A stretch of DNA of 64,000 bases from Deltaproteobacteria bacterium (GTDB lineage: Bacteria > Myxococcota_A > Polyangia > Polyangiales > JADJMO01): positions 70,191 through 134,190 of the forward strand of contig JANYDK010000037.1 in assembly GCA_025363655.1 (NCBI GenBank). The letters run 5' to 3'. The notes under the pieces were generated by a model. It saw only the letters and a list, made by a program, of their open reading frames with translations. It did no database searches and had not been told where the DNA came from. Every line of letters begins with the position of its first letter. Positions within the stretch are counted from its first letter, which is position 1. Positions 16,288 to 31,114 of the stretch are shown here, piece after piece. The position numbers and the translations under genes are program-made.

Positions 16288-17598
16288 CTACTTCGGCGCG
16301 CACCGCGAGACCACGCAGCGTGCGCCGTTCGCGACGGCCTGCGGGGGAGCATGGGCGAGCACTTCTTGGGCACGCCGAACGATGTCGGCCTCGCAATGAC
16401 TGGCGAGCCACATGGCCGCGAGCGCAGGGAGGGAAGTTGCCTCCAGACGCTCCACCTTGCCTTGCGTGCAGGCGTGCGTGAGGTCGCTGTAATACGCGAC
16501 GAGGCTCTCGCCGGGCGAAAGACGTGGATCGAGGGCGGCGAGGGCGAAGGCGCGCATCGTCTTGCTCGACGCACAACGGCTGGCGGCTTCGAACACCGCC
16601 AATGCACGCGGCTCTGCGAACGGGCCGCCTTCGGTGGCCAGGCGGGTGCCGATCTCGGCGAGGGTGTCGCAGGCGCTCGGCACGGCCTCCTTCGCCACCC
16701 ATCCCGCGATGGCCTGCAATCGCGCCGTGGTGCACAGCGGCCTCGTCACTGGCGCGTCACAATCTTCGAGCGCCGCCTGCAGCGCGTGCTTCCTGTCCGC
16801 CGGATCGACCGTCTCCAACATCGCGTCGAAGTTGCGTTCGGGATCGAGCTCGCCGATCGCGAGCGCCTTCCCCGGGGAGAGCGCGTCGAGCAGCCGATCG
16901 CGGAGCCTCTCGCTCAGCTCCAACCATTTGACGATGCGCGCGCGGCGTTCTTCTCCGAGCGGGCGAGATATTGACGACGTCAACATGGCTTCGCCGTGGA
17001 AGTGATCGGTGAGCGCGACGTCGGTCGCGAGATCCGCGTACGGGCTCTCGGGGGTCAGCGACGCCACCAGCCAATCGTCGGCAGAGGACACCGTCGCCAA
17101 TGCCCCCGAGCAGGTCATCGCCTCCGAGCCCACGAGCTCGACGAGCACCACCGAGAGGTCGAACGAGAGGACGGCGACGAACGGTCGCGGCGGCTCACCG
17201 TTCGACGCTTTGACGCGGAGAACCGTCCTCGACTTGTCGGCATCCGGACAGAGATCGAGATCGACGGCGCCGAAAGGGTCACCCGCCGAGCCCCGCTGCA
17301 CGCTCCCCAGCTCGACGTACCCTCGGGCGAAGACATCGACGCTCGACGGCGCCTCGATCGCGAGCGTCGACGTCCACTCGTCGAAGGGCGTGAACGCGAA
17401 GCCCTTGCCGAGGGAGGAGCACGCGCCATGGTGCTTGCCCTCGGTGCGCGCGGTCACCTGCAGCGGCGTCGGCTCGAGATCGAGCGCGGTGACGATGCGT
17501 CGCGACGGCGGGAGGTCGGTGATGCACCCACGGCAGCTCGCTGAGAGGAGAGCCGCGGCGCCGAGGAGGAGCGCTGCACGTCGACCCCTCCCGGCCAT
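16288..17598 (-). CDS. Lipoprotein, second of two tandem paralogues
   Basis: 436 aa from ATG 17598, which opens a lipoprotein signal (AALLLGAAALLSASCRGC). It shares with its downstream neighbour the order: Cys-containing GAC block, PFDEW/PYDQW, a LCPDADKS/HCESAKS segment, a TCSGALA/TCADVLA segment and a C-terminal Cys-rich helical half (CTTARLQAIAGWVAK, SACDTLAEIGTRLAT). Only 10 bases separate the two genes. No named family recognised. Confidence 0.82.
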   Translation of the reverse strand: MAGRGRRAALLLGAAALLSASCRGCITDLPPSRRIVTALDLEPTPLQVTARTEGKHHGACSSLGKGFAFTPFDEWTSTLAIEAPSSVDVFARGYVELGSVQRGSAGDPFGAVDLDLCPDADKSRTVLRVKASNGEPPRPFVAVLSFDLSVVLVELVGSEAMTCSGALATVSSADDWLVASLTPESPYADLATDVALTDHFHGEAMLTSSISRPLGEERRARIVKWLELSERLRDRLLDALSPGKALAIGELDPERNFDAMLETVDPADRKHALQAALEDCDAPVTRPLCTTARLQAIAGWVAKEAVPSACDTLAEIGTRLATEGGPFAEPRALAVFEAASRCASSKTMRAFALAALDPRLSPGESLVAYYSDLTHACTQGKVERLEATSLPALAAMWLASHCEADIVRRAQEVLAHAPPQAVANGARCVVSRCAPK

Positions 17599-17618
17599 CC
17601 TTCCCTCACGTCGTTCTC

Positions 17619-19583
<1,965 letters not shown>

Positions 19584-19600
19584 GGGCCCACCACGCTACC

Positions 19601-20170
19601 CTATGCCATGCCGCGCTTGCCGCTCATGAAGCCGGCAGGGGCGACGCCGGCGAGGGCGTAGGCCTCGGTCCAGCGCTCGCTGATGGGGATGTCGAAGACG
19701 ATCTTGTCGTCGAGGGGCATCGGCAGCCACGCGCCCTGCCGAATCTCTTCCTCGAGTTGGCCCGGGGCCCAGCCTGTATAACCTAGATATGCACTGTAGG
19801 TGCCGGGCCCTTCGGCGCGGCCGATGGCGGCGAGCACTTCACGCGACTGCGTCACGGCGACGCCATCCGAGAGGCGAATTTCACCCTCGCGCGCTTTGAT
19901 GTCGGGTTTGTAGACGATCCAGCCGATTTCCGGCTGCACCGGGCCCCCGACGCGGACGATGCCTCGATGTTGCGAGGCGTCTTCGGCGAGGCCGAGCTGT
20001 TCGAGCAGATCGCCGACGCAGGCGATTTCCTTGTGACCGTTGACGACGATTCCGAGCGCACCTTCGTCACCGTGCGCGACCATCAGCACGAGCGCGTGGA
20101 GGAAGTTCGGATCGTTGAGCGGCGGAGCTGCGATGAGGAGGCCTGGAGCGAGCGAGCCGCGCTGCAGCAT
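19601..20170 (-). CDS. YqgE/AlgH family protein
   Basis: 189 aa, cytoplasmic. The DUF179 core is clear: GSLAPGLLIAAPPLNDPNF, VLMVAHGDEGALGIVVNG, VGGPVQ, and AYLGYTGWAPGQLEEEI followed by GAW. The biochemical role of this family is not settled; AlgH was first tied to alginate gene regulation in Pseudomonas. The gene stands alone, divergent from the cupin gene. Confidence 0.93.
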   Translation of the reverse strand: MLQRGSLAPGLLIAAPPLNDPNFLHALVLMVAHGDEGALGIVVNGHKEIACVGDLLEQLGLAEDASQHRGIVRVGGPVQPEIGWIVYKPDIKAREGEIRLSDGVAVTQSREVLAAIGRAEGPGTYSAYLGYTGWAPGQLEEEIRQGAWLPMPLDDKIVFDIPISERWTEAYALAGVAPAGFMSGKRGMA

Positions 20171-20240
20171 CTCTCAGGCGTAGCACTTTTCCGTCGGGCT
20201 CGTCACTCGCCCGAGGCGCTCGCCGTGGTAGCGTCCGCGC

Positions 20241-20735
20241 ATGTCGAAGAGGCCGCCGTTCATCATCTCGACCGAAGACGTCCCCTCGAACGAAGGGAAG
20301 TATCCGCACAACGACGAAATCTTCGGCACCGGTCGGAAGGTCGGGGTCTTCGCCGGCCTCTTGCGCATCGGTCTCCACGTCGATCGTCTCGCGCCGGGTC
20401 AGCGAACGTCGTATCCGCACAGCGAAGAAGACGAAGAAGAGTTCGTCTTCGTCCTCGAAGGCGAAGTGCAGGCGTGGGTCGACGGTGAGCTTCACCCGAT
20501 GAAAAAGGGCGATTTGGCGGCCTTCCCGGCCGGCACCGGCATCAACCACACGTTCATCAACGACTCCGATCACGAGGTGGTGCTCCTCATCGGGGGCGAG
20601 CAGGCGAAGAGCGACAGCCGCATCTTCTACCCGCACAACGGAGAGCGTAAGAAGGACATGCCCTGGGCCCGCTGGTGGGACGACGTGCCGAGGCGCCCGC
20701 TCGGGCCGCACGACGGCAAACCGAAGCCCCGCTAG
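20241..20735 (+). CDS. Cupin-domain protein
   Basis: 164 aa. A single cupin_2 barrel: GLHVDRLAPGQRTSYPHSEEDEEE carries the first metal motif (G..L.PG...PH....E), and GDLAAFPAGTGINHTFINDS the second (His in NH). The C terminus is basic and Pro rich. Single-domain cupins of this type include sugar-binding and dioxygenase-like proteins; the substrate cannot be told. It is followed by 12 bases and the D-aminopeptidase gene, so they may be co-transcribed. Confidence 0.85.
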   Translation: MSKRPPFIISTEDVPSNEGKYPHNDEIFGTGRKVGVFAGLLRIGLHVDRLAPGQRTSYPHSEEDEEEFVFVLEGEVQAWVDGELHPMKKGDLAAFPAGTGINHTFINDSDHEVVLLIGGEQAKSDSRIFYPHNGERKKDMPWARWWDDVPRRPLGPHDGKPKPR

Positions 20736-20747
20736 ACTGCGTCGGGC

Positions 20748-21578
20748 ATGCACGTCTACGTCAGCATCGACATCGAAGGCGTCGCCGGGGTGGTGCACGT
20801 CGATCAGACGCGCCGCACCGGTCACGACTACGAGCGAGCCCGGCATTGGATGACGCTCGAGGCGAACGCCGCCATCGCCGGCGCCTATGAAGCGGGATGT
20901 ACATCCATCCTCGTGAACGACTCGCACGGCGACATGCGCAACCTCGTCCTCGACGAGCTCGATCCGCGCGCGGAGGTGATCTTCGGCTCGCTCAAGCCGC
21001 TCTCGATGGTGCAGGGGGCGAGCGATCGCTTCGGCGTCGCCCTCTTCATCGGTTACCACGCAGGCGCCGGGAGCCGCGCCGGCATCCTCGATCACACCTA
21101 CTACGGCAAGGTCGTCGCGCGTCTCCGCGTCGGTGGCCTCGACGCCAACGAGACCGCGCTCAACGCGATGGTCCTCGGCGCGCACGGCGTTCCGGTCGGG
21201 CTCGTCACCGGCGACGAGACCACCTGCGCGCAGGCGAAAGAGGTCCTCGGCGACGTCGAGACGGTGGCCGTCAAAGAAGCATATACACGCTATGCAGCTC
21301 GCACGATCGGCCTCGAATCGGCTCGATCGCGCATTCGTAGCGGCGCCCTTCGCGCCGTCGGTCGGGCGGCGAAGCAAGGCTTTCGGCCGTACGTGCCGGC
21401 GCCGCCGCATGCGCTCGAGATCGACTTCGTCAACTCCGCCTGCGCCGACGCCGCCGAGCTCGTCCCCGGCACGCGTCGACTCGGTGGCACCACCACTGCC
21501 TACGAAGCGCCCGACGCCGACACCGTCATTCGCGTCATCCAGGCGTGGACCCTCCTCGCCGCCTCGACGGTGGTGTGA
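20748..21578 (+). CDS. dppA: M55-family D-aminopeptidase, DppA-like
   Basis: 276 aa, the usual length of this family. Zinc-site residues fit Bacillus DppA closely: Asp8 and Glu10 in SIDIEG, His60 in NDSHGDMRN, His104 in GYHAGAG, and Glu135 in ANETALNA. The family cleaves N-terminal D-amino acids (D-Ala-D-Ala, D-Ala peptides), often in use of peptidoglycan peptides. The stop overlaps a possible GTG start of the WD40 gene (GTGA at 21575-21578). Confidence 0.9.
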   Translation: MHVYVSIDIEGVAGVVHVDQTRRTGHDYERARHWMTLEANAAIAGAYEAGCTSILVNDSHGDMRNLVLDELDPRAEVIFGSLKPLSMVQGASDRFGVALFIGYHAGAGSRAGILDHTYYGKVVARLRVGGLDANETALNAMVLGAHGVPVGLVTGDETTCAQAKEVLGDVETVAVKEAYTRYAARTIGLESARSRIRSGALRAVGRAAKQGFRPYVPAPPHALEIDFVNSACADAAELVPGTRRLGGTTTAYEAPDADTVIRVIQAWTLLAASTVV

Positions 21579-21580
21579 GC

Positions 21581-22630
21581 ATGCGTACTCGCGGCACTCC
21601 CGGACTCGCGCTCTGGCTCATCCTCGTGGTTTCTCTCGGCGCTTGCCTCGGTGCTTGCGGCAAGACCACGCCGTTGGCCACCGACGTGCCGAAACCGAAG
21701 GCGGGCCCCGTTCTCAAGAAGGGGCGGCTCACCGAGTCGCAGGCCGTCATCCCCGCGCACGACGGTGGCGTCGGAAACGTCGCGCTCTCGCCCGACGGAA
21801 AATACCTGGCGACCGCCGGCGTAGAAGATGGGCTCCTCAAGGTCTGGGACATCGCCGCGCACACCATTCGTTGCGAAGGCTCGCAGACCTATCCGGTGAC
21901 CACGCTCGTCTACGGTCCCGATGGGAAACAGCTCCTCACGGCCAGCGCATCGGTGAAGGCCAGCGGGGGCTTCGCCAACAGCCACGGACAGCTCCTCGTC
22001 TGGGACGCGCTCACCTGCAAACAGTCCAAGGTGATCATGGAAGACGCGCGCCTCGTCGAGGACGCGGTCTTCGCACCGGACGGCAAGACGGTCGCTTGCA
22101 TCGAATCGAAGGCCCACGTCGCGCGCATCTTCGACGCCGCCGCCGGCACTTTTCTCAAGTCGTTCGAAGCGAGCGACGCCGGCTCTCCCGCGCTCGGATT
22201 CCTCGACGGTGGCAAGGGCTTGCTCGTCACCAGCGACGAAGGCGCGCTCTTCTATGAAGTTGCTTCGGGGGTGAAGAAATGGGCGATCGAGGACGCCGTC
22301 TCCGCCCTCGCCATCGCGCGTGACGGCAAGAGCTTCGCCATCGCTTCCGGCGTCGCCCTTCGCACCTTCGACGCGGCGGGCAACCCGTTGCGCGTGATGA
22401 AATCCCTCGAACCGATCGACGGCGCGCTCGCGTTCTCCGCCGACGGACGACGCATCGCCAGCGGCGGAGACGACGGCGCGGTGGTGATCTGGAACGCCGC
22501 CAACGGCGATCGTCTGCAATCGGTCCGGCCGCACGATGGCCCGGTGCTGACGGTCGGATTTTCCCCCGATGGATCGTGGTTCGCGAGCGGCTCCGAGGAC
22601 GGGACGGTCGCGCTCTTCGGCGTCGAGTGA
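21581..22630 (+). CDS. WD40-repeat lipoprotein
   Basis: 349 aa from ATG 21581; an in-frame GTG at 21575 that overlaps the dppA stop is an alternative. Lipoprotein signal ALWLILVVSLGACLGACG. WD40-like blades repeat through the rest, e.g. VGNVALSPDGKYLATAGVEDGLLKVWD, ALAFSADGRRIASGGDDGAVVIWN and VLTVGFSPDGSWFASGSEDG. At about seven blades it should close one propeller on the cell surface or in the periplasm. Role unknown. Confidence 0.87.
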   Translation: MRTRGTPGLALWLILVVSLGACLGACGKTTPLATDVPKPKAGPVLKKGRLTESQAVIPAHDGGVGNVALSPDGKYLATAGVEDGLLKVWDIAAHTIRCEGSQTYPVTTLVYGPDGKQLLTASASVKASGGFANSHGQLLVWDALTCKQSKVIMEDARLVEDAVFAPDGKTVACIESKAHVARIFDAAAGTFLKSFEASDAGSPALGFLDGGKGLLVTSDEGALFYEVASGVKKWAIEDAVSALAIARDGKSFAIASGVALRTFDAAGNPLRVMKSLEPIDGALAFSADGRRIASGGDDGAVVIWNAANGDRLQSVRPHDGPVLTVGFSPDGSWFASGSEDGTVALFGVE

Positions 22631-22655
22631 GGGAGAACGAGCACGATTTTTCGGC

Positions 22656-22661
22656 TATCCT
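22656..22661 (+). promoter_or_regulatory. Possible -10 element ahead of the ATPase-HNH pair
   Basis: TATCCT lies 11 bases before the ATPase start codon in a short AT-richer stretch (ATTTTTCGGCTATCCTAG). No good -35 is visible (gagaac at 17 bases). If used, the transcript would have almost no leader. Confidence 0.25.
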
Positions 22662-22672
22662 AGCGGCCGAGC

Positions 22673-23920
22673 ATGCTCAAGCGTCTCTCGCTGCAGAATT
22701 TCGAACCGTTCACCGAGTTCGACGTCGAGTTTGGGCGTCGCCTGAACCTTCTGTGCGGAGACAACGGCTTGGGCAAGACGTTCTGCCTCGAGGTCGTCTA
22801 TCGCGTGCTGACCGGTGAGTGGCCGACGCACCCCGCCGCCGTTCGAGTTCACGATGACCAGCTGCCGGTCATCGAAGCGGATGGATTTTCGGAGACAGAA
22901 CACGAGAGATACACCTTCGTCCCCGGAGCGCAGGACTGGGACCATGAGGGAGAAATCAAGCCCCCCCAGCTCATCTACATGCGAGCCGATGGTGGCTTCA
23001 CGATCTGGGACAGGTACAGAAATACCGGCAGGGCACGACGAGATGTTCGCGGCAACCTGCTTGGGATGGAACAGCGCATCGCACTCTCCGTCGATGAAGT
23101 TTGGAACGGGCTTCGTGGTGAGGATGAACGTCCGCGATGCAACGGCCTTCTGAGTGATTGGCTCACCTGGGAAGCGCGTCGTCCCGACCTCTTTCAGCGA
23201 TTCGTACGCGTGCTCAGGCATCTCTCGCCCAAGGGCGAAGTCCTTCAGCCTGGAACACCTCGCAGACTCTCCGTGGAAGATGCGCGAGACATTCCGACGC
23301 TGAGACTTCCCTACGGCGAAGTCCCCGTGACTCTCGCTTCTGCGGCGATGCGGCGCATCTTGTCGCTCGCCTACGTGCTTCTGTGGACATGGCACGAGCA
23401 CGTCGAGATTGCCAAACTTCTCGGAGCGCCGCCGATCACGAATCTCGTCCTCATCGTGGACGAGGTGGAGGCGCACCTGCATCCGCTTTGGCAGCGACTC
23501 ATAGTGCCGGCCATTTTCAAGGCCATCCCCGAGCTGGACGACCGAATTCAGCTGCAGGTTCTGGCCAGTACCCACGCTCCGCTCGTTCTCGCATCCGTCG
23601 AAACGATGTTCGATCCCGAGAACGATCGACTCACCCACTTTGGTCTCGTCGACGGAAAAATCGTGGTCGAACCGATTCCCTGGGCGAAGCAGGGCGATGC
23701 GGAAAACTGGCTGACATCACGAATTTTCGGGCTCGACCAGGCCCGTTCCGTCGAGGCCGAGCGGGCGATCGACGCGGCCGAAGCGTTTCTGCGCGGCGAA
23801 CCGCGATCGGACCTTTTCGATGAGAAGGCAATCGACGCCGAGCTGCACCGAGTTCTCGCCGGCGACGACGAATTTTGGCCACGTTGGCCTCTAGCTCGGT
23901 TGCCAGCCGCCGAAGAATGA
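22673..23920 (+). CDS. AAA/ABC-type ATPase of a Septu-like (PtuA-like) pair
   Basis: 415 aa. SMC/OLD-type ATPase: Walker A GDNGLGKT at 29-36, a family-specific block YGEVPVTLASAAMRRILSLA (214-233) where an ABC signature would be, Walker B LVLIVDEVEAHLHP (258-271), and the H-loop ASTHAPLVLAS (298-308). No coiled-coil arm is long enough for an SMC and no TOPRIM domain follows, so it is not an OLD nuclease. It is translationally coupled (ATGA) to an HNH-like protein, the pairing used by PtuA-PtuB. Codon use and G+C are lower than in neighbours (34/60 G+C at 23041-23100 versus 43/60 at 21061-21120), suggesting transfer. Likely it senses an invader and controls the partner nuclease; this is inference. 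Confidence 0.85.
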   Translation: MLKRLSLQNFEPFTEFDVEFGRRLNLLCGDNGLGKTFCLEVVYRVLTGEWPTHPAAVRVHDDQLPVIEADGFSETEHERYTFVPGAQDWDHEGEIKPPQLIYMRADGGFTIWDRYRNTGRARRDVRGNLLGMEQRIALSVDEVWNGLRGEDERPRCNGLLSDWLTWEARRPDLFQRFVRVLRHLSPKGEVLQPGTPRRLSVEDARDIPTLRLPYGEVPVTLASAAMRRILSLAYVLLWTWHEHVEIAKLLGAPPITNLVLIVDEVEAHLHPLWQRLIVPAIFKAIPELDDRIQLQVLASTHAPLVLASVETMFDPENDRLTHFGLVDGKIVVEPIPWAKQGDAENWLTSRIFGLDQARSVEAERAIDAAEAFLRGEPRSDLFDEKAIDAELHRVLAGDDEFWPRWPLARLPAAEE

Positions 23921-24489
23921 TTCGCGTCGAGCCGCCGCCCGAGCCCCCGCTATTCGACGAACGCGTGCGTCGTCGGGGCGCGGCTTGGCTCGCCGAACAT
24001 TCCGTCGCGATGCGTCCTCCCGCGTTGTGGTCCGAGGTTCGCGACGATCTCGCAGCTGGATTTCGGAATCGTTGCGGCTATTCCGCGGTCGAAATTCGCC
24101 ATGGCGACGGCACGGTCGATCACTTCCGTCCTATCAGTGGGAACCGAGACCTCAGCTACGAGTGGAACAATTACAGGTACGCGTCGCCGCGCATGAACAG
24201 CGCGAAGGGAGACGCCGTCGTCCTCGATCCCTTCGAGGTGCAGGATGGATGGTTTGCAATCCAACTGCCGAGCGCCCTACTCGTCATCACGAGTTCGATG
24301 CCGGACACGCACAGAGCGTTGGCGCTCAAGACCATTGAGCGCCTTCGCTTGAACAAGTCGCACGCGATCAAGAACAGGCTCGCTTGGCAATTGAGATACG
24401 AGAGTGGGAAGATGACCCTCGACGTTCTTCACGAGGTCGATCCGCTCTTGGCACAAGCTGTCGAGGCGCAAGCTCGCCGATCGAAATAG
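23917..24489 (+). CDS. HNH-like nuclease of a Septu-like (PtuB-like) pair
   Basis: 190 aa from ATG 23917, which overlaps the ATPase stop by four bases. The core CGY...TVDHFRPISGN...YEWNNYRYASPRMNSAKGD...LDPF follows the PtuB/TIGR02646 HNH layout: Asp68-His69, Asn84/85, Asn94 and Lys97. The zinc cysteines of that family (CxxC before DH and CxxCN after) are not kept: only Cys53 remains and RYASPRMN replaces the second pair. The His-Me finger residues thus survive while structural zinc seems lost. It probably cuts DNA or RNA under control of the ATPase; activity is inferred. Confidence 0.8.
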   Translation: MIRVEPPPEPPLFDERVRRRGAAWLAEHSVAMRPPALWSEVRDDLAAGFRNRCGYSAVEIRHGDGTVDHFRPISGNRDLSYEWNNYRYASPRMNSAKGDAVVLDPFEVQDGWFAIQLPSALLVITSSMPDTHRALALKTIERLRLNKSHAIKNRLAWQLRYESGKMTLDVLHEVDPLLAQAVEAQARRSK

Positions 24490-24494
24490 GCTAC

Positions 24495-24536
24495 AAAAAA
24501 AGCTCGCCCGCGGCTCCTTGCGAAGACGCGGGCGAG
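24495..24536 (-). terminator. Intrinsic terminator for the methyltransferase-like gene
   Basis: A perfect 10-bp stem, CTCGCCCGCG at 24503-24512 and CGCGGGCGAG at 24527-24536, followed on the minus strand by seven T (24501-24495). It ends transcription from the minus-strand gene at 24556. On the plus strand the hairpin lies just after the HNH stop but without a T run, so it would serve that direction poorly. Confidence 0.85.
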
Positions 24537-24555
24537 GGGGCGAGGCGAGCTCGAC

Positions 24556-25752
24556 TTACTTGATCGGGGCCGGGGGCGGGGTCGCGGCGGCGGTGCCTGC
24601 GGGCTTCGGCATCGCGGTCATCGCCGGCTTCTCGCTCGCCGCTGCCGGCTTCGCTTCGGCCTTCGGCTTCTCGGCCTTGATCGCGACCTTGACGAACTTC
24701 AGCGTCATGCGATCGCTCTCGCCGATGGCGGTGTACTTGTCCTTGTCCTTGTCCTTCAGCTCGAGCGACGGCGGGAGCGTCCAGACGCCTTCCGGATAGT
24801 CCTTGGTGTCCTTCGGGTTGGCGTTGACCTCGGAGGGCTTGCCGACGAGCTTGAAGCCCGCCTTCTCGAAGCTCTCGATGACGAACTTCTGCGGGACGTA
24901 GCCCTTCTTCGAACTCTCCTTCGGATCGGCGTCGTCCTTCGCGCGGTGCTCTTCGATGCCGACGACGCCGCCCGTCTTGAGGGCCTTGTGCCACTCGCCG
25001 AGCCAAGCCTCGAGGTTGCCGCGGTTGACCATGCCGTGGAGGCCACGCATGACGAGGACCGCGTCGAGCTTGCCGTCCATGTTCAGCGCCGGCGCCTTGC
25101 CATCGACGACGACCGTCTCGACCTTGCCGTAAATCTCCGGCGCGGTGGCGAGGAAGTCTTTCCACTCGTTCGCGTAGAACGTGCTGCGCTCTTCGGCGGG
25201 GCCGTTCGGGTCACCGCTGGTGCCGATGTACTTGCCCTTCATCGCCAACGTCGGCGCGAGGAGCTCGGTGTACCAACCGGTGCCGGGGCCGACGTCGAGC
25301 ACCGTCATGTTCGGCTTGATGCCGAAGTGCTCGAGGGTCTCGAGCGGGTGACGGAACTTGTCGCGCTCGGCGTTGCCCGGCATGCGGTGCTTGCCTGCCA
25401 TCGCCGCGGTGATGCCGGCCTTGAGGCTCGGATAGACCTTCTCGGCGAGCGCCTTGGCGGCGGTGTGCATCTCGGGCGTCCAGCGTGCGAGCTCGGCCTT
25501 GTGATCGCTCGCCCACTTGTCCTTGTCGGCCGCGAGCTTGGCGGCCGCCTCGGCCTTCTTCTTCTCTTCCGGCGTCGGCTCCGGCTTCGCGGGCTCGACC
25601 GTGGCCGTCGGCTCGGGAGTCGCGACCGTCGGCGTCGGCGTCGGCGCTGGCGCGGGCGGCGGGTTCGGCGGCGGCGGCGGGTCGGAGCCACACGCGCCTG
25701 CGAGGCTCGCGAGCAAGGAAACGGCGAGGACGGTCGAGAGAGCTTTACGCAT
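24556..25752 (-). CDS. Exported methyltransferase-fold lipoprotein
   Basis: 398 aa from ATG 25752 (lipobox LAGACG; an upstream ATG at 25773 is less apt). A long Pro-rich linker (PPPPPNPPPAPAPTPTPTV) and a Lys/Ala helix lead to a class I methyltransferase-like core: motif I TVLDVGPGTGWYTELLAP, then VDGKAPALNMDGKLDAVLVMRGLHGMVNRG and LKTGGVVGIEEH. Predicted methyltransferases with a signal peptide (the COG4798 group) look like this. SAM is not known in the periplasm, so either export is wrong or the fold serves another job. The C terminus is Lys/Pro/Ala rich. Confidence 0.8.
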   Translation of the reverse strand: MRKALSTVLAVSLLASLAGACGSDPPPPPNPPPAPAPTPTPTVATPEPTATVEPAKPEPTPEEKKKAEAAAKLAADKDKWASDHKAELARWTPEMHTAAKALAEKVYPSLKAGITAAMAGKHRMPGNAERDKFRHPLETLEHFGIKPNMTVLDVGPGTGWYTELLAPTLAMKGKYIGTSGDPNGPAEERSTFYANEWKDFLATAPEIYGKVETVVVDGKAPALNMDGKLDAVLVMRGLHGMVNRGNLEAWLGEWHKALKTGGVVGIEEHRAKDDADPKESSKKGYVPQKFVIESFEKAGFKLVGKPSEVNANPKDTKDYPEGVWTLPPSLELKDKDKDKYTAIGESDRMTLKFVKVAIKAEKPKAEAKPAAASEKPAMTAMPKPAGTAAATPPPAPIK

Positions 25753-25880
25753 GCCAGCCGCGTACATCGTCACGGGCTGAGGCTCAATCCGTTCCCCGCC
25801 ACCGGCTGCTCCGTGACATCTTGTTCGCGCTTCTTCACGGTCCCCACACCTCCTCCGCGGTAGGCCTGCACTACACGTCG

Positions 25881-27161
25881 ATGAAGCGATTTCTCAGCTG
25901 GTTCGTCGTCGTCCTCGTCCTCGCCGCTGGTGGCTACGGCGTTTACCGTTGGCGCGTTCGCAGTGCACACGTCGCTCCGAAGTACCGCACGGCCAAAGTC
26001 GACAAGGGGCGCGTCTCCTCCAAAGTCACGGCCACGGGAACGCTCTCCGCGCGGGTGACGGTGCTCGTCGGTAGCCAAGTGAGCGGCCGACTGCAGGACA
26101 TTTTCGTCGACTTCAACTCGCAGGTGAAGAAGGGCCAGGTCATCGCCCAGATCGATCAGCGCCTTTTCCAGGCTGATTTGCAGCGCGCGCGCGCCAACTA
26201 CGTGCAGTCCGACGGGCAAGCGAAGAAGTCGAAGGTGCAGGTCGCGCAAGCGCAGCGCGCGCTCGATCGCGCCATCAAGCTCAAGGCCGAAGGGCTCCTC
26301 GGTGACGCCGATCTCGAAATCGCGCAATCCAACCTCGAGGGGGCGAAGGCCGACTTGGTCGTCTCGCAAGGGAGCATCGCCCAGGCCGCGGCCGCGCTCA
26401 AAACCTCCGAGGTCAACCTCGGCTTCACCACCATCATCTCGCCGATCGACGGCGTGGTCATCTCGCGCGCGGTCGACGTCGGACAGACGGTCGCTGCCTC
26501 GCTCTCGGCGCCGACGCTCTTCACGATCGCGCAAGACCTCAAATCGGTGCAAATCGACTCCTTCGTCGCCGAGGCCGACATCGGCAAGCTGCAGGAGGGG
26601 ATGGAGGCGACCTTCTCCGTCGACGCCTATCCGGGGCAGAAATTCCTCGGAAAAGTGCGAATGATCCGCAACGCCGCGCAGACCGTGCAGAACGTCGTCA
26701 CCTACGACGCGGTCATCGACGTCGACAACTCCGACCTCAAGCTGCGCCCCGGGATGACGGTCAACGTCACCTTCGTCTGGGCCGATCGCAAAGACGTCCT
26801 CCGCATTCCCAATGCTGCGCTTCGCTTCAAGCCGCCGGCCGATCCGAGCGCTTCGGCGAGCGCGAGCGGTGGCGGAAATGGCGGAGGCGGCGGAGGCGGC
26901 GGTGGCGGCGGTGGTGGCGGTAAGAAGAAGAAGGACGATGCCGGTGCAGCCTCGCCCAAGCGCACCGTCTACGTGCTGCGCGACGGCGCCTCGGTTGCCG
27001 TGTCGATCGAGGTCGGAATCAGCGACGGCACCCTCACCGAGGTGACGAGCGGCGAGCTCAAGGAAGGCGACGACGTCATCACCGAGCTCGAAGATCCCGC
27101 CGCGGCGAAGGCGGGCGGAGGCGGAGCGGCGGCCAACACACAGTTGCCGCGGAAGTTCTGA
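25881..27161 (+). CDS. macA: MacA-like periplasmic adaptor (HlyD/RND MFP family)
   Basis: 426 aa from ATG 25881. A single N-terminal membrane anchor (FVVVLVLAAGGYGVY) is followed by the biotinyl-lipoyl half motifs (TGTLSARVTVLVGSQVSGRL and TIISPIDGVVISRAVDVGQTV), a coiled-coil hairpin (about 95-175), and the beta-barrel LRPGMTVNVTFV. A Ser/Ala then Gly-run linker (14 consecutive Gly) and KKKKDD separate the barrel from a membrane-proximal domain. It bridges a MacB-type ABC pump to an outer-membrane channel. It shares one base with the next gene (TGATG). Confidence 0.9.
   Translation: MKRFLSWFVVVLVLAAGGYGVYRWRVRSAHVAPKYRTAKVDKGRVSSKVTATGTLSARVTVLVGSQVSGRLQDIFVDFNSQVKKGQVIAQIDQRLFQADLQRARANYVQSDGQAKKSKVQVAQAQRALDRAIKLKAEGLLGDADLEIAQSNLEGAKADLVVSQGSIAQAAAALKTSEVNLGFTTIISPIDGVVISRAVDVGQTVAASLSAPTLFTIAQDLKSVQIDSFVAEADIGKLQEGMEATFSVDAYPGQKFLGKVRMIRNAAQTVQNVVTYDAVIDVDNSDLKLRPGMTVNVTFVWADRKDVLRIPNAALRFKPPADPSASASASGGGNGGGGGGGGGGGGGGKKKKDDAGAASPKRTVYVLRDGASVAVSIEVGISDGTLTEVTSGELKEGDDVITELEDPAAAKAGGGGAAANTQLPRKF
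26866..26925. repeat. GGC-rich poly-Gly tract in macA-like gene
   Basis: Repeated GGC/GGT/GGA codons specify a run of 14 Gly, preceded by SASASGGGNGG and followed by KKKKDD. It is a likely slippage-prone, flexible insert between adaptor domains. Confidence 0.85.
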
Positions 27162-27895
27162 TGGCTGCGCTCATCCGCGTGGAGGAGCTCACCAAAGTCT
27201 ACCGCATGGGCGACCAAGAGCTGCATGCGCTCGACGGCGTCTCGATGGAGATCGCGAGCGGCGAGTTCGTCGCCATCATGGGCACCTCGGGCTCCGGCAA
27301 GTCGACGTTGATGAACGTCCTCGGTTGCCTCGATAGGCCGACGAGCGGCAAATATTTCCTCGGCGACAAAGAGATCTCGCGCCTCTCGGTCAACGAGCTG
27401 GCCGACATCCGCAGCCACACCATCGGCTTCGTCTTCCAGAACTTCAACCTCCTCGCGCGCACGTCGGCGCAAGAGAACGCCGAGCTCCCGCTGGTCTATG
27501 CCGGGGCGAGCAGCAAGGATCGCAAGGCGAAGGCGAAGCGCGCGCTCGAACGCGTCGGGCTCGGCAAGCGCCTCGATCACATGCCGTCGCAGCTCTCGGG
27601 CGGTCAGCAGCAGCGCGTCGCCATCGCCCGCGCCATCGTCAACGATCCTCGCCTCATCCTCGCCGACGAGCCGACCGGCGCCCTCGACTCGCGCACCACC
27701 GTCGAGGTGATGGCGCTCATGCAAGAGCTCGGCAAATCGGGCATCACCGTCGTCGTCGTCACCCACGAGCCCGACGTCGCCGCGTACGCCGAACGCGTCA
27801 TCGTCGTCAAAGACGGCAAAATCGTGGAAGATCGACGACAGACGCCGGAGGAAGCAGTGCACTCGCAACCTCCGACCTCGGGTGCTCCGACGTGA
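27161..27895 (+). CDS. MacB/LolD-type ABC transporter ATPase
   Basis: 244 aa. Walker A GTSGSGKST (41-49), Q-loop FVFQNFNLL, signature LSGGQQQR, Walker B LILADEPTGALDS and H-loop VVVVTHEPDVA. It belongs to the MacB/LolD/FtsE-like class whose ATPase is separate from its permease here, unlike E. coli MacB where they are fused. It starts on the last base of the adaptor stop (TGATG) and its own end is overlapped by the permease GTG (GTGA). Confidence 0.93.
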   Translation: MAALIRVEELTKVYRMGDQELHALDGVSMEIASGEFVAIMGTSGSGKSTLMNVLGCLDRPTSGKYFLGDKEISRLSVNELADIRSHTIGFVFQNFNLLARTSAQENAELPLVYAGASSKDRKAKAKRALERVGLGKRLDHMPSQLSGGQQQRVAIARAIVNDPRLILADEPTGALDSRTTVEVMALMQELGKSGITVVVVTHEPDVAAYAERVIVVKDGKIVEDRRQTPEEAVHSQPPTSGAPT

Positions 27896-29121
27896 GCCCG
27901 TTCGCCACCCTCCGCATCGCCTTGCGCGCGCTCCTGCGCAACAAGATGCGCTCGTTCCTGACGATGCTCGGCATCATCATCGGCGTCGGCGCGGTCATCG
28001 CGATGGTCGCCATCGGCGAAGGTGCCAAAGCACAAGTCGAAGCCTCGTTCGCGGCGATGGGCACCAACCTCCTCATCGTCCTGCCTGGCGCCTCCAGCGG
28101 CGGCGGCGCTTCCGGTGGTTTCGGCTCGCAACCGACGCTGACGTGGGACGATCTCAAAGCCATCCAGAACGAGTGCCCCGCCGTCCGCGTCGCTTCCCCG
28201 GCGCTCCGCTCGAACGCGCAAATCGTCAGCGAAGAGCAGAACTGGTCGACCGGCATCACCGGCACGACGCCCGAATATTTCGACGTCCGCAGCTGGCCGA
28301 TGGCGAAGGGCGTCTCCATCACCGCGGCCGACAACGACGGCGGCGCCAAGGTCGTCGTGCTCGGTCAGACGGTCGTCGGAAAGCTCTGGGGACCGAACGC
28401 CGATCCGATCGGTCAGACGGTGCGCATCAAGAACATCCCCTTCGAAGTCATCGGCGTCGCCGCGAGCAAGGGACAGTCACCGACCGGACAGGACTACGAC
28501 GACGTCGCCTTCATCCCGGTCAACACCTACCTCGCGAAGATCCAAGGCGGCCTCAAGAAGTATCTCAGCGGTACCATCTTCGTCGGCGCCAACTCGGCCG
28601 GTGACGTCGGGCGCGCCGAGCTCGAGGTGCAAGCGCTGCTTCGCGAACGTCACCACTTGCAACCGGGTGACGACGACGACTTCTCGGTGCGCAACCTCGC
28701 CGAGATCGCCGGCGCGCAACAGGCAGGCACGCAGACGCTGACCACGCTCCTCGCCAGCGTCGCCGCGGTCTCGCTCCTCGTCGGCGGCATCGGCATCATG
28801 AACATCATGCTCGTCAGCGTCACCGAGCGAACGCGCGAGATCGGCACCCGCATGGCCGTCGGCGCGAAACCCAGGCAAATTCTCGCGCAATTCCTCGTCG
28901 AGGCGCTCGTCCTCTCGGTCTTCGGCGGGCTCGTCGGCGTCGCCCTCGGCATGCTCGCTTCCCAGAGACTCGCGGCGCAGTTCGGGTGGCCGACGTTGAT
29001 TCGTCCCGACGTCACGATCATCGCCGTCGTCTTCAGCGCGATCGTCGGCGTCGGCTTCGGGCTCTACCCGGCGAGGAAGGCCTCGCGCCTCGATCCGATT
29101 CAAGCACTCCGCTTCGAGTGA
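27892..29121 (+). CDS. MacB-type ABC transporter permease
   Basis: 409 aa from GTG 27892. Typical order: helix 1 (MRSFLTMLGIIIGVGAVIAMVAIGEGAK), a periplasmic MacB_PCD domain (about 45-270), then three helices in the FtsX domain with LLVGGIGIMNIMLVSVTERTREIG and the ending GLYPARKASRLDPIQALRFE. With the two genes before it this makes a complete inner-membrane part of a tripartite exporter for peptides, toxins or antibiotics; no TolC homologue lies nearby. Confidence 0.94.
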   Translation: MSPFATLRIALRALLRNKMRSFLTMLGIIIGVGAVIAMVAIGEGAKAQVEASFAAMGTNLLIVLPGASSGGGASGGFGSQPTLTWDDLKAIQNECPAVRVASPALRSNAQIVSEEQNWSTGITGTTPEYFDVRSWPMAKGVSITAADNDGGAKVVVLGQTVVGKLWGPNADPIGQTVRIKNIPFEVIGVAASKGQSPTGQDYDDVAFIPVNTYLAKIQGGLKKYLSGTIFVGANSAGDVGRAELEVQALLRERHHLQPGDDDDFSVRNLAEIAGAQQAGTQTLTTLLASVAAVSLLVGGIGIMNIMLVSVTERTREIGTRMAVGAKPRQILAQFLVEALVLSVFGGLVGVALGMLASQRLAAQFGWPTLIRPDVTIIAVVFSAIVGVGFGLYPARKASRLDPIQALRFE

Positions 29122-29138
29122 AACGGTACAGTGCGGCG

Positions 29139-30284
29139 ATGAAGATCGATCCCGATCTGGTCGTCCGCGCGCGCGAAGCAGGGCAGGTCGCGCTCCCGAA
29201 GATCTCCGAGGCCGAAGAGGCGCGACACCTTTCGCCGGTCGCGGCTGCTGCGCTCGTCTCCGCCGGCGTCTTCAAGCTCCTCGTCCCGCGCGCGTACGGC
29301 GGCAGCGAGACCAACGCCGCGACGTTCTTCGCGGTCCTCGAAGAGCTCGGCCTCGTCGATGGCTCGCTCGCCTGGTGCGCGATGATCGGCGCCAGCACCG
29401 GCCTCGTCGCCGCGCATCTCCGAGACGACGTCGCCCGCGCCATCTACGCGCCCGACGACGCCGTCTCCTGCGGCGTCTTCGCGCCCACCGGCCTCGCAAA
29501 ACCCGTGGAAAATGGCTTTCGCGTGCGCGGCCGATGGTCCTTCGCGAGCGGTTGTCATCACGCCGGCTGGCGCATGGTCGGCGTCCTTTGCGAAGGGGAA
29601 GCGCCCGGCGCGAACGGCCTTCCCAAGGTGCACCACGCGCTCTTGCCCGCGGCCGAGACCAAGATCATCGATACCTGGACGACGAGCGGCCTCCGCGGCA
29701 CCGGCAGCCACGATCTCGAGGTCGACGACGTCTTCGTCCCCAGCGAGCGCTTCTTCTCTCTCTTGTCGCCGCCTCGCCATCACGGCGCGCTTTACCGGCT
29801 TCCGTTCTTCGGGCTCCTCGCCGGTGGCATCGCCGCGGTCACGCTCGGCATCGCGCGCGGAGCCCTCGAGACCATCGTCGACTTGGCGAAGAAGAAGACG
29901 CCCCTCGGCGCGCGTCGCGGTATCGCCCATCGTGAGCTGGTGCAGTTGCAGGTCGCGCAAGCCGAAGCGAAGGTGCGAGCTGCGCGCGCGTTCCTCGGGG
30001 AAGCCGCCGCCGACGCCGAAGCCGAGAGCGTCGCCGGTGAAGTCTCGGTTCGAACGCGTGCCCTATTCCGACTCGCCGCCGCCCACGCCGCGACCGAGAG
30101 CGCCGCCGCCGTCGACCTCGCCTACGGTCTCGGAGGTGCGACCGCGATCTACGAGAAAAACCCGCTCCAGAGACACTTTCGCGATGTCCATGTGGCCGTC
30201 GCCCACGTGATGGTGTCGCCCGTCGTCACCACCACCGTCGGCCGCGTGCTCCTCGACCTCGAAACGGACGTGAGCACTCTATGA
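29139..30284 (+). CDS. Acyl-CoA-dehydrogenase-like flavoprotein
   Basis: 381 aa from ATG 29139; a GTG at 29118 in frame overlaps the permease stop and is a plausible alternative. N-terminal helical domain (PVAAAALVSAGVFKLLVPRAYGGSE), middle beta domain with WSFASGCHHAGWRMVGVL and TSGLRGTGSHDLEVDDVFVP, and C-terminal ACAD type-2 helical domain ending RDVHVAVAHVMVSP. That C terminus is typical of flavin-dependent monooxygenases of the HsaA/DszC type rather than true dehydrogenases. It likely uses reduced flavin or FAD on an acyl or aromatic substrate. It overlaps the SDR start (ATGA). Confidence 0.87.
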   Translation: MKIDPDLVVRAREAGQVALPKISEAEEARHLSPVAAAALVSAGVFKLLVPRAYGGSETNAATFFAVLEELGLVDGSLAWCAMIGASTGLVAAHLRDDVARAIYAPDDAVSCGVFAPTGLAKPVENGFRVRGRWSFASGCHHAGWRMVGVLCEGEAPGANGLPKVHHALLPAAETKIIDTWTTSGLRGTGSHDLEVDDVFVPSERFFSLLSPPRHHGALYRLPFFGLLAGGIAAVTLGIARGALETIVDLAKKKTPLGARRGIAHRELVQLQVAQAEAKVRAARAFLGEAAADAEAESVAGEVSVRTRALFRLAAAHAATESAAAVDLAYGLGGATAIYEKNPLQRHFRDVHVAVAHVMVSPVVTTTVGRVLLDLETDVSTL

Positions 30285-31114
30285 AAATGAACAAGACGCT
30301 CGAAGGCACCGTCGCGCTCGTCACCGGCGCGAGTCGTGGCGTCGGCAAAGGCATCGCGCTCGGACTCGGCGAAGCGGGCGCGACCGTCTACGTCACGGGT
30401 CGTTCCATCACGAGTGGCACGAGTGGCTCGCTCCCCGGCACCATCGGCGAGACGGCCGAGCAAGTCACCGCGCTCGGCGGCAGGGGCATCGCAATCGCCT
30501 GCGATCACGGCGACGACGCGCAAGTCGAAGCCCTCTTCGCGCGCATCGCCTCCGAAGCGCCCGGCCTCGATCTCCTCGTCAACAACGCCTTCGCCATCCC
30601 CGACGGCAAGGTGACCGCGCCCTTCTGGGAGCTGCCGATCGATCAGTGGGACACCATGCACCGCGTCGGCCTTCGCTCGCACTACGTCGCTGCGGTCTTC
30701 GCCGCCAAGGCGATGGTCCCGAAGAAGCGCGGCCTCATCGTCAACGTCAGCAGCTTCGGCGCCAAGATCTACGCGGTCAACGTCGCCTACGGCGCGGGCA
30801 AGGCGGGCGTCGATCGCCTCTCGCGCGACATGGGCCGCGAGCTGAAGCCGCACGGCATCTGCGTCGTCTCGCTCTGGCCAGGCATCGTCAAGACCGAGCG
30901 CCTTCTCCTCGAGCCCGATCGCATCGGCTTCGATCCGACCCACGGCGAGACCCCGCAGTTCTCCGGCCGCGCCGTCGCCGCCCTCACCGCCGATGCAAAA
31001 CGCTTGGAAAAAACTGGGCAATCGTTGGTCGTGGCGGAGATGGCTCGCGAGTACGGCTTCACCGATCTCGACGGCTCGCAACCAGCGTCGTTGCGGCGGG
31101 AGAAGAAGGGCTGA
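30281..31114 (+). CDS. Short-chain dehydrogenase/reductase, DHRS1-like
   Basis: 277 aa. Rossmann cofactor loop TGASRGVGKG at 15-24, NNAF at 101-104, catalytic Ser157/158 in NVSSFG, Tyr170 and Lys174 in AYGAGK. The insert TSGSLPGTIGETAEQV after the second strand (a cofactor-proximal loop) and the WPGIVKTE segment resemble the DHRS1 subgroup. It is coupled to the flavoprotein gene, so both may act in one catabolic or modifying step. Confidence 0.92.
   Translation: MKMNKTLEGTVALVTGASRGVGKGIALGLGEAGATVYVTGRSITSGTSGSLPGTIGETAEQVTALGGRGIAIACDHGDDAQVEALFARIASEAPGLDLLVNNAFAIPDGKVTAPFWELPIDQWDTMHRVGLRSHYVAAVFAAKAMVPKKRGLIVNVSSFGAKIYAVNVAYGAGKAGVDRLSRDMGRELKPHGICVVSLWPGIVKTERLLLEPDRIGFDPTHGETPQFSGRAVAALTADAKRLEKTGQSLVVAEMAREYGFTDLDGSQPASLRREKKG

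Follow-up and report, generated by a model that had tools for sequence, protein, structure and literature searches.

The gene pair at positions 22673–24489 of the analyzed window (the whole stretch of 64,000 nucleotides) encodes an ATPase followed by a small HNH-type protein, which raises the question of whether these genes form a Septu (PtuA-PtuB) anti-phage system, the effector part of a retron, or a DNA repair ATPase accompanied by an unrelated nuclease. The first-pass annotation, made from the sequence alone, pointed to Septu and suggested a separate, less described branch. The observations presented here make a two-gene Septu system (PADLOC Septu type I) from a diverged branch the very probable identity of the pair, a reading that is supported by profile matches, protein structure, gene order, co-occurrence of the two genes and the lack of retron matches. 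The relevant features are listed in Table 1.

Table 1. Features of the ptuAB locus, its surroundings and homologous loci (window positions unless a locus is given)
Feature	Position	Strand	Details
ptuA, 415 aa, ABC/SMC-OLD-type ATPase of Septu	22673..23920	+	ATG start; PADLOC, structure, motifs
PtuA Walker A			GDNGLGKT, K35
PtuA signature region	residues 214-233		YGEVPVTLASAAMRRILSLA
PtuA Walker B			LVLIVDE, D263 and E264
PtuA His switch			STHAP, H301
ATGA stop/start overlap of ptuA and ptuB	23917..23920	+	sequence
ptuB, 190 aa, HNH-type nuclease of Septu	23917..24489	+	ATG at 23917; PADLOC, structure
WD40-repeat protein	21545-22630		upstream of ptuA; absent at E<=1e-30 from four other family genomes
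Methyltransferase-like gene (by eye)	24556-25773	minus	convergent to ptuAB
Caspase-like PADLOC match	866-2137	minus	E 9.5e-12, residues 52-219
PtuA homologs with N-terminal extension	L006:1486-3663, L012:1465-3570, L025:1477-3738, L018:1477-3399	minus	
PtuA homologs with N-terminal extension	L090, L092, L093, L111	plus	
Orphan ptuA	L114:4176-5585		without ptuB

The PtuA ATPase and its signature region

A PADLOC search identifies the ptuA product as PtuA (PDLC00307) with an E-value of 6.4e-139 and a score of 461 bits over residues 1-407. The motifs cited by the first-pass annotation for an SMC/OLD-type ATPase, GDNGLGKT (residues 29-36) and ASTHAP, are both present in this ORF together with LVLIVDEVEAHLHP, and in an alignment of 40 homologs G29, N31, G34, K35, D263, E264 and H301 are invariant. 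The AlphaFold model, for which the input alignment included 40 PtuA sequences, has a mean pLDDT of 88.6; its best structural match is 8sux_D (Z 21.8, rmsd 3.5, 275 aligned residues), spanning residues 1-337, and the top 20 matches, with Z from 21.8 to 18.9, are all PtuA proteins of Septu or retrons, followed by Rad50 (Z 17.5) and AriA (Z 17.4).

The YGEVPVTLASAAMRRILSLA block, initially taken for a distinct element and given as the ground for a separate branch, turns out to be the ordinary ABC-signature region of PtuA, as indicated by its alignment with QYGKIPLSQLSDGLRN of the E. coli protein (8ee4). This block is conserved across the Septu branch, with the signature consensus A-S-A-G-M-R/K-R in 40 aligned rows; in the window protein, the signature glycine is replaced by alanine (A225), a residue found in 5 of the 40 rows, the window sequence included. 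To judge from this replacement, the geometry of the ATPase could be slightly different.

Several PtuA homologs carry open N-terminal extensions of approximately 215-400 aa, measured from stop to stop (Table 1), for which a Pfam search gives no match. In another PADLOC model, PDLC00270, with 627 profile positions, the match to the window PtuA does not begin until position 215. Taken together, the extensions and the position of this match indicate what seems to be a recurring extra N-terminal domain in PtuA homologs.

The PtuB nuclease and its linkage to ptuA

The ptuB product matches the PADLOC PtuB model PDLC00348 over residues 1-188 with an E-value of 1.1e-61 and a score of 206 bits. An alternative TTG start at 23875 would lengthen the gene; the family alignment starts at the ATG. 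The HNH-type residues expected for the small downstream protein are found as C53-x-Y55, D68-H69, W83-x-N85 and N94-x-x-K97, and C53, H69, N85, N94 and K97 among them are invariant in a 22-row alignment. The TIGR02646 chain contains C-A-Y-C, and most members of this branch have S, L or T at the position of its second cysteine. Residues 1-189 of the AlphaFold model (22 sequences in the input alignment, mean pLDDT 94.2) superimpose on E. coli Septu PtuB 8eea_G with a Z of 15.1 and rmsd of 3.8 over 182 aligned residues, and on retron-Ec78 PtuB with Z up to 15.7; the first 12 structural matches are all PtuB, and other HNH proteins reach a Z of at most 6.6. A PDB search with the single PtuB sequence finds no match, and a PDB profile search yields weak matches only, the best of which is PtuB; the protein scores below the Pfam and NCBIfam cut-offs.

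The ATGA junction noticed in the first pass implies that the two genes share one transcript and are translationally coupled. The linkage of the two genes was surveyed in 107 loci, 27 from a search of the phylum and 80 from a genome-wide scan chosen on PtuA alone. A PtuB homolog is encoded downstream of the PtuA ORF in 104 of 108 cases in these loci, at most about 180 nt after the end of ptuA in 99 of the 104 relatives, so that the two-gene unit is conserved as anticipated and a majority of homologs without an HNH partner is not seen. Four cases deviate: L002 carries a genuine orphan ptuA adjoined by a beta-helix-like gene (called by eye), L085 encodes PtuB about 2.2 kb from PtuA, and L034 and L036, without PtuB downstream, are located close to contig ends. 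The orphan ptuA of L114, with a diverged C-terminus and an adjoining parallel beta-helix-like gene, is probably a decayed system.

Spread of the branch and genomic surroundings

The sequence identity to the solved Septu PtuA and PtuB is 15-19% (12-19% over all PtuA/PtuB structural matches, Septu and retron combined). In accord with these values and with scores under the NCBIfam cut-offs, the proposal of a separate, less described branch is reasonable, but the branch is already catalogued in PADLOC, with the dedicated models PDLC00307 and PDLC00348. Literature searches covering myxobacteria and cyanobacteria found no experimental study of this Septu branch. Within the phylum, a homolog (E<=1e-40) is present in 22 of 284 genomes and, within the family, in one of the four other genomes, with 38% identity. 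Homologs are also found in cyanobacteria, Chlorobiota, Planctomycetota, Acidobacteriota, Chloroflexota, Pseudomonadota and other groups; the tree of the branch intermixes phyla, and few of its deep forks are well supported. The GC content of the pair (0.605 and 0.607, compared with a mean of 0.674) is the lowest and near-lowest among the 53 called genes of the window which, along with the patchy occurrence, suggests horizontal acquisition. Using the four other family genomes, no empty site lacking ptuAB could be demonstrated, because the WD40 neighbor is missing in all four and the homologs of the methyltransferase-like gene reside in different surroundings.

The flanking genes are ordinary, encoding a POT transporter, AlgH-like, cupin, D-aminopeptidase, WD40 and methyltransferase-like (by eye) proteins, HlyD and MacB parts. 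The initial statement that no methylase flanks the pair has to be qualified given the adjoining methyltransferase-like gene; neither PADLOC nor Pfam matches this gene at the applied thresholds, it is transcribed toward ptuAB, and its relatives within the family do not accompany ptuAB. Among 49 proteins of the window, no convincing defense protein was found besides the pair, and the window contains no second defense system. The sole additional PADLOC match at E<=1e-15, mad3, was discarded as a defense neighbor since it corresponds to the ordinary ATPase of a MacB-type ABC transporter. The caspase-like protein at the start of the window might, from its sequence, be a metacaspase-type peptidase; no defense partner is seen near it. 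The neighborhoods of 11 relatives on long contigs, examined with rough gene calls that omit a few neighboring ORFs, contain clear DISARM (L126) or PglZ (L121) genes among the top 25 families listed in 2 of the 11 cases, and control stretches taken from the same contigs at a distance of at least about 25 kb give mostly generic kinase and regulator models among the top 25 families listed. Thus, placement in a defense island, also envisaged in the first pass, finds modest support among the relatives but none in the window.

Alternatives, likely mechanism and comparison with known systems

The folds of both proteins fit the effectors of retrons Ec78 and Ec83 as well as those of Septu, so that the pair might be the effector module of an Ec78-like type I-A retron, a class also named Septu type II, with the reverse transcriptase and ncRNA lost or encoded elsewhere. 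However, in agreement with the first-pass annotation, a search for reverse transcriptases (PF00078/RVT_1, E<=0.001) gives no match in the whole genome, which is 96% complete (the search is positive in three control genomes, one of them E. coli), and no Rfam family matches positions 17000-31000. The profile comparisons by which the first pass proposed to settle the identity of the pair divide along the same line: the PADLOC PtuA and PtuB models match in full length, whereas the NCBIfam retron models and TIGR02646 remain far below their cut-offs (65.8 of 500 bits for PtuA, 16.1 of 150 for PtuB and 26 of 52.15 for TIGR02646). In addition, PtuB shows the C-x-Y-S pattern of E. coli Septu as opposed to C-x-Y-C of the TIGR02646 chain. 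Given the lack of a reverse transcriptase match in a genome of this completeness, the pair is assigned to two-gene Septu, and the retron module, for which neither reverse transcriptase nor RNA matches exist, is rejected as extremely improbable. Equally improbable is a housekeeping repair ATPase of the RecF/Rad50/OLD type with an unrelated HNH neighbor. Pfam assigns PtuA only to the generic AAA_15/AAA_21 families, and the RecF and RecN models match its N-terminus weakly, but the patchy distribution, the constant PtuB partner and the structural ranking (Z of 21.8 with PtuA vs at most 17.5 with Rad50/SMC) lead to the rejection of this explanation, and the deviant GC content of the pair also speaks against it; a placement in a housekeeping family, which was to count against Septu, is not seen next to the full-length PtuA match.

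The divergence of the branch and the lack of a defense island in the window are also compatible with a Septu-related pair that has changed its role to plasmid or transformation defense or to toxin-like growth control. The retention of the architecture and of the catalytic residues, and the DISARM or PglZ genes beside some relatives, render such a change very unlikely. As an anti-phage Septu system, the pair most likely acts through phage-triggered cleavage of nucleic acids by PtuB that is gated by PtuA. By analogy with characterized relatives, PtuA would oligomerize and dock PtuB, and nucleotide-bound PtuA would keep the complex inactive; phage infection would then release or activate the PtuB nuclease, which would halt phage production by cutting either DNA or one particular tRNA. 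In the complex published by Li et al. 2024, PtuA reportedly inhibits PtuB in a nucleotide-gated manner.

In one E. coli Septu system, mutation of the PtuA Walker A or B motif or of the PtuB H or N residue abolishes immunity (PMC13096335); the correspondence to the residues described here is by motif type. The E. coli system in which these mutants were made cuts tRNA-Tyr upon infection (PMC13096335), and the target differs among PtuAB systems, with nicked DNA reportedly cut by E. coli ATCC25922 Septu and tRNA-Tyr depletion for Septu EcB88 and retron-Eco7 (PMC11555353, PMC13096335). That the diverged branch, present in many phyla, has another target or trigger than the E. coli systems is conceivable but rather unlikely. 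Because it is far removed from those E. coli systems that have been studied to date, this branch could help to decide whether the ancestral Septu activity was DNA or tRNA cleavage. Otherwise, the locus is ordinary: it adds one more genome to a widespread Septu branch, and the correct call made from sequence alone is confirmed as Septu, which is already known and not a new kind of system.

Among the known systems, PARIS AriA (Z 17.4) and Gabija GajA (Z 15.9) share with PtuA the SMC/OLD ATPase superfamily but have other partner proteins and are less similar to it than PtuA proteins are. The PtuA-PtuB effectors of the type I-A retrons Ec78 and Ec83 show the same folds and the same pairing, whereas the window pair comes without a reverse transcriptase or retron ncRNA match and scores under the retron family cut-offs. 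E. coli Septu type I (8eea/8sux) has the ATPase and HNH pair with the same motifs and the same PtuA signature region, and the fold match is full-length for PtuB and covers residues 1-337 of PtuA; its PtuB contains C-C-Y-S, conforming to the C-x-Y-S pattern of the window protein. The differences are the 15-19% identity, the length of PtuA (465 residues in E. coli vs 415 in the window) and the signature, S-D-G in E. coli vs S-A-A in the window. Finally, the PADLOC models PDLC00307 and PDLC00348, which match the two proteins in full length with 461 and 206 bits, represent the branch itself, and the pair shows no notable difference from them.
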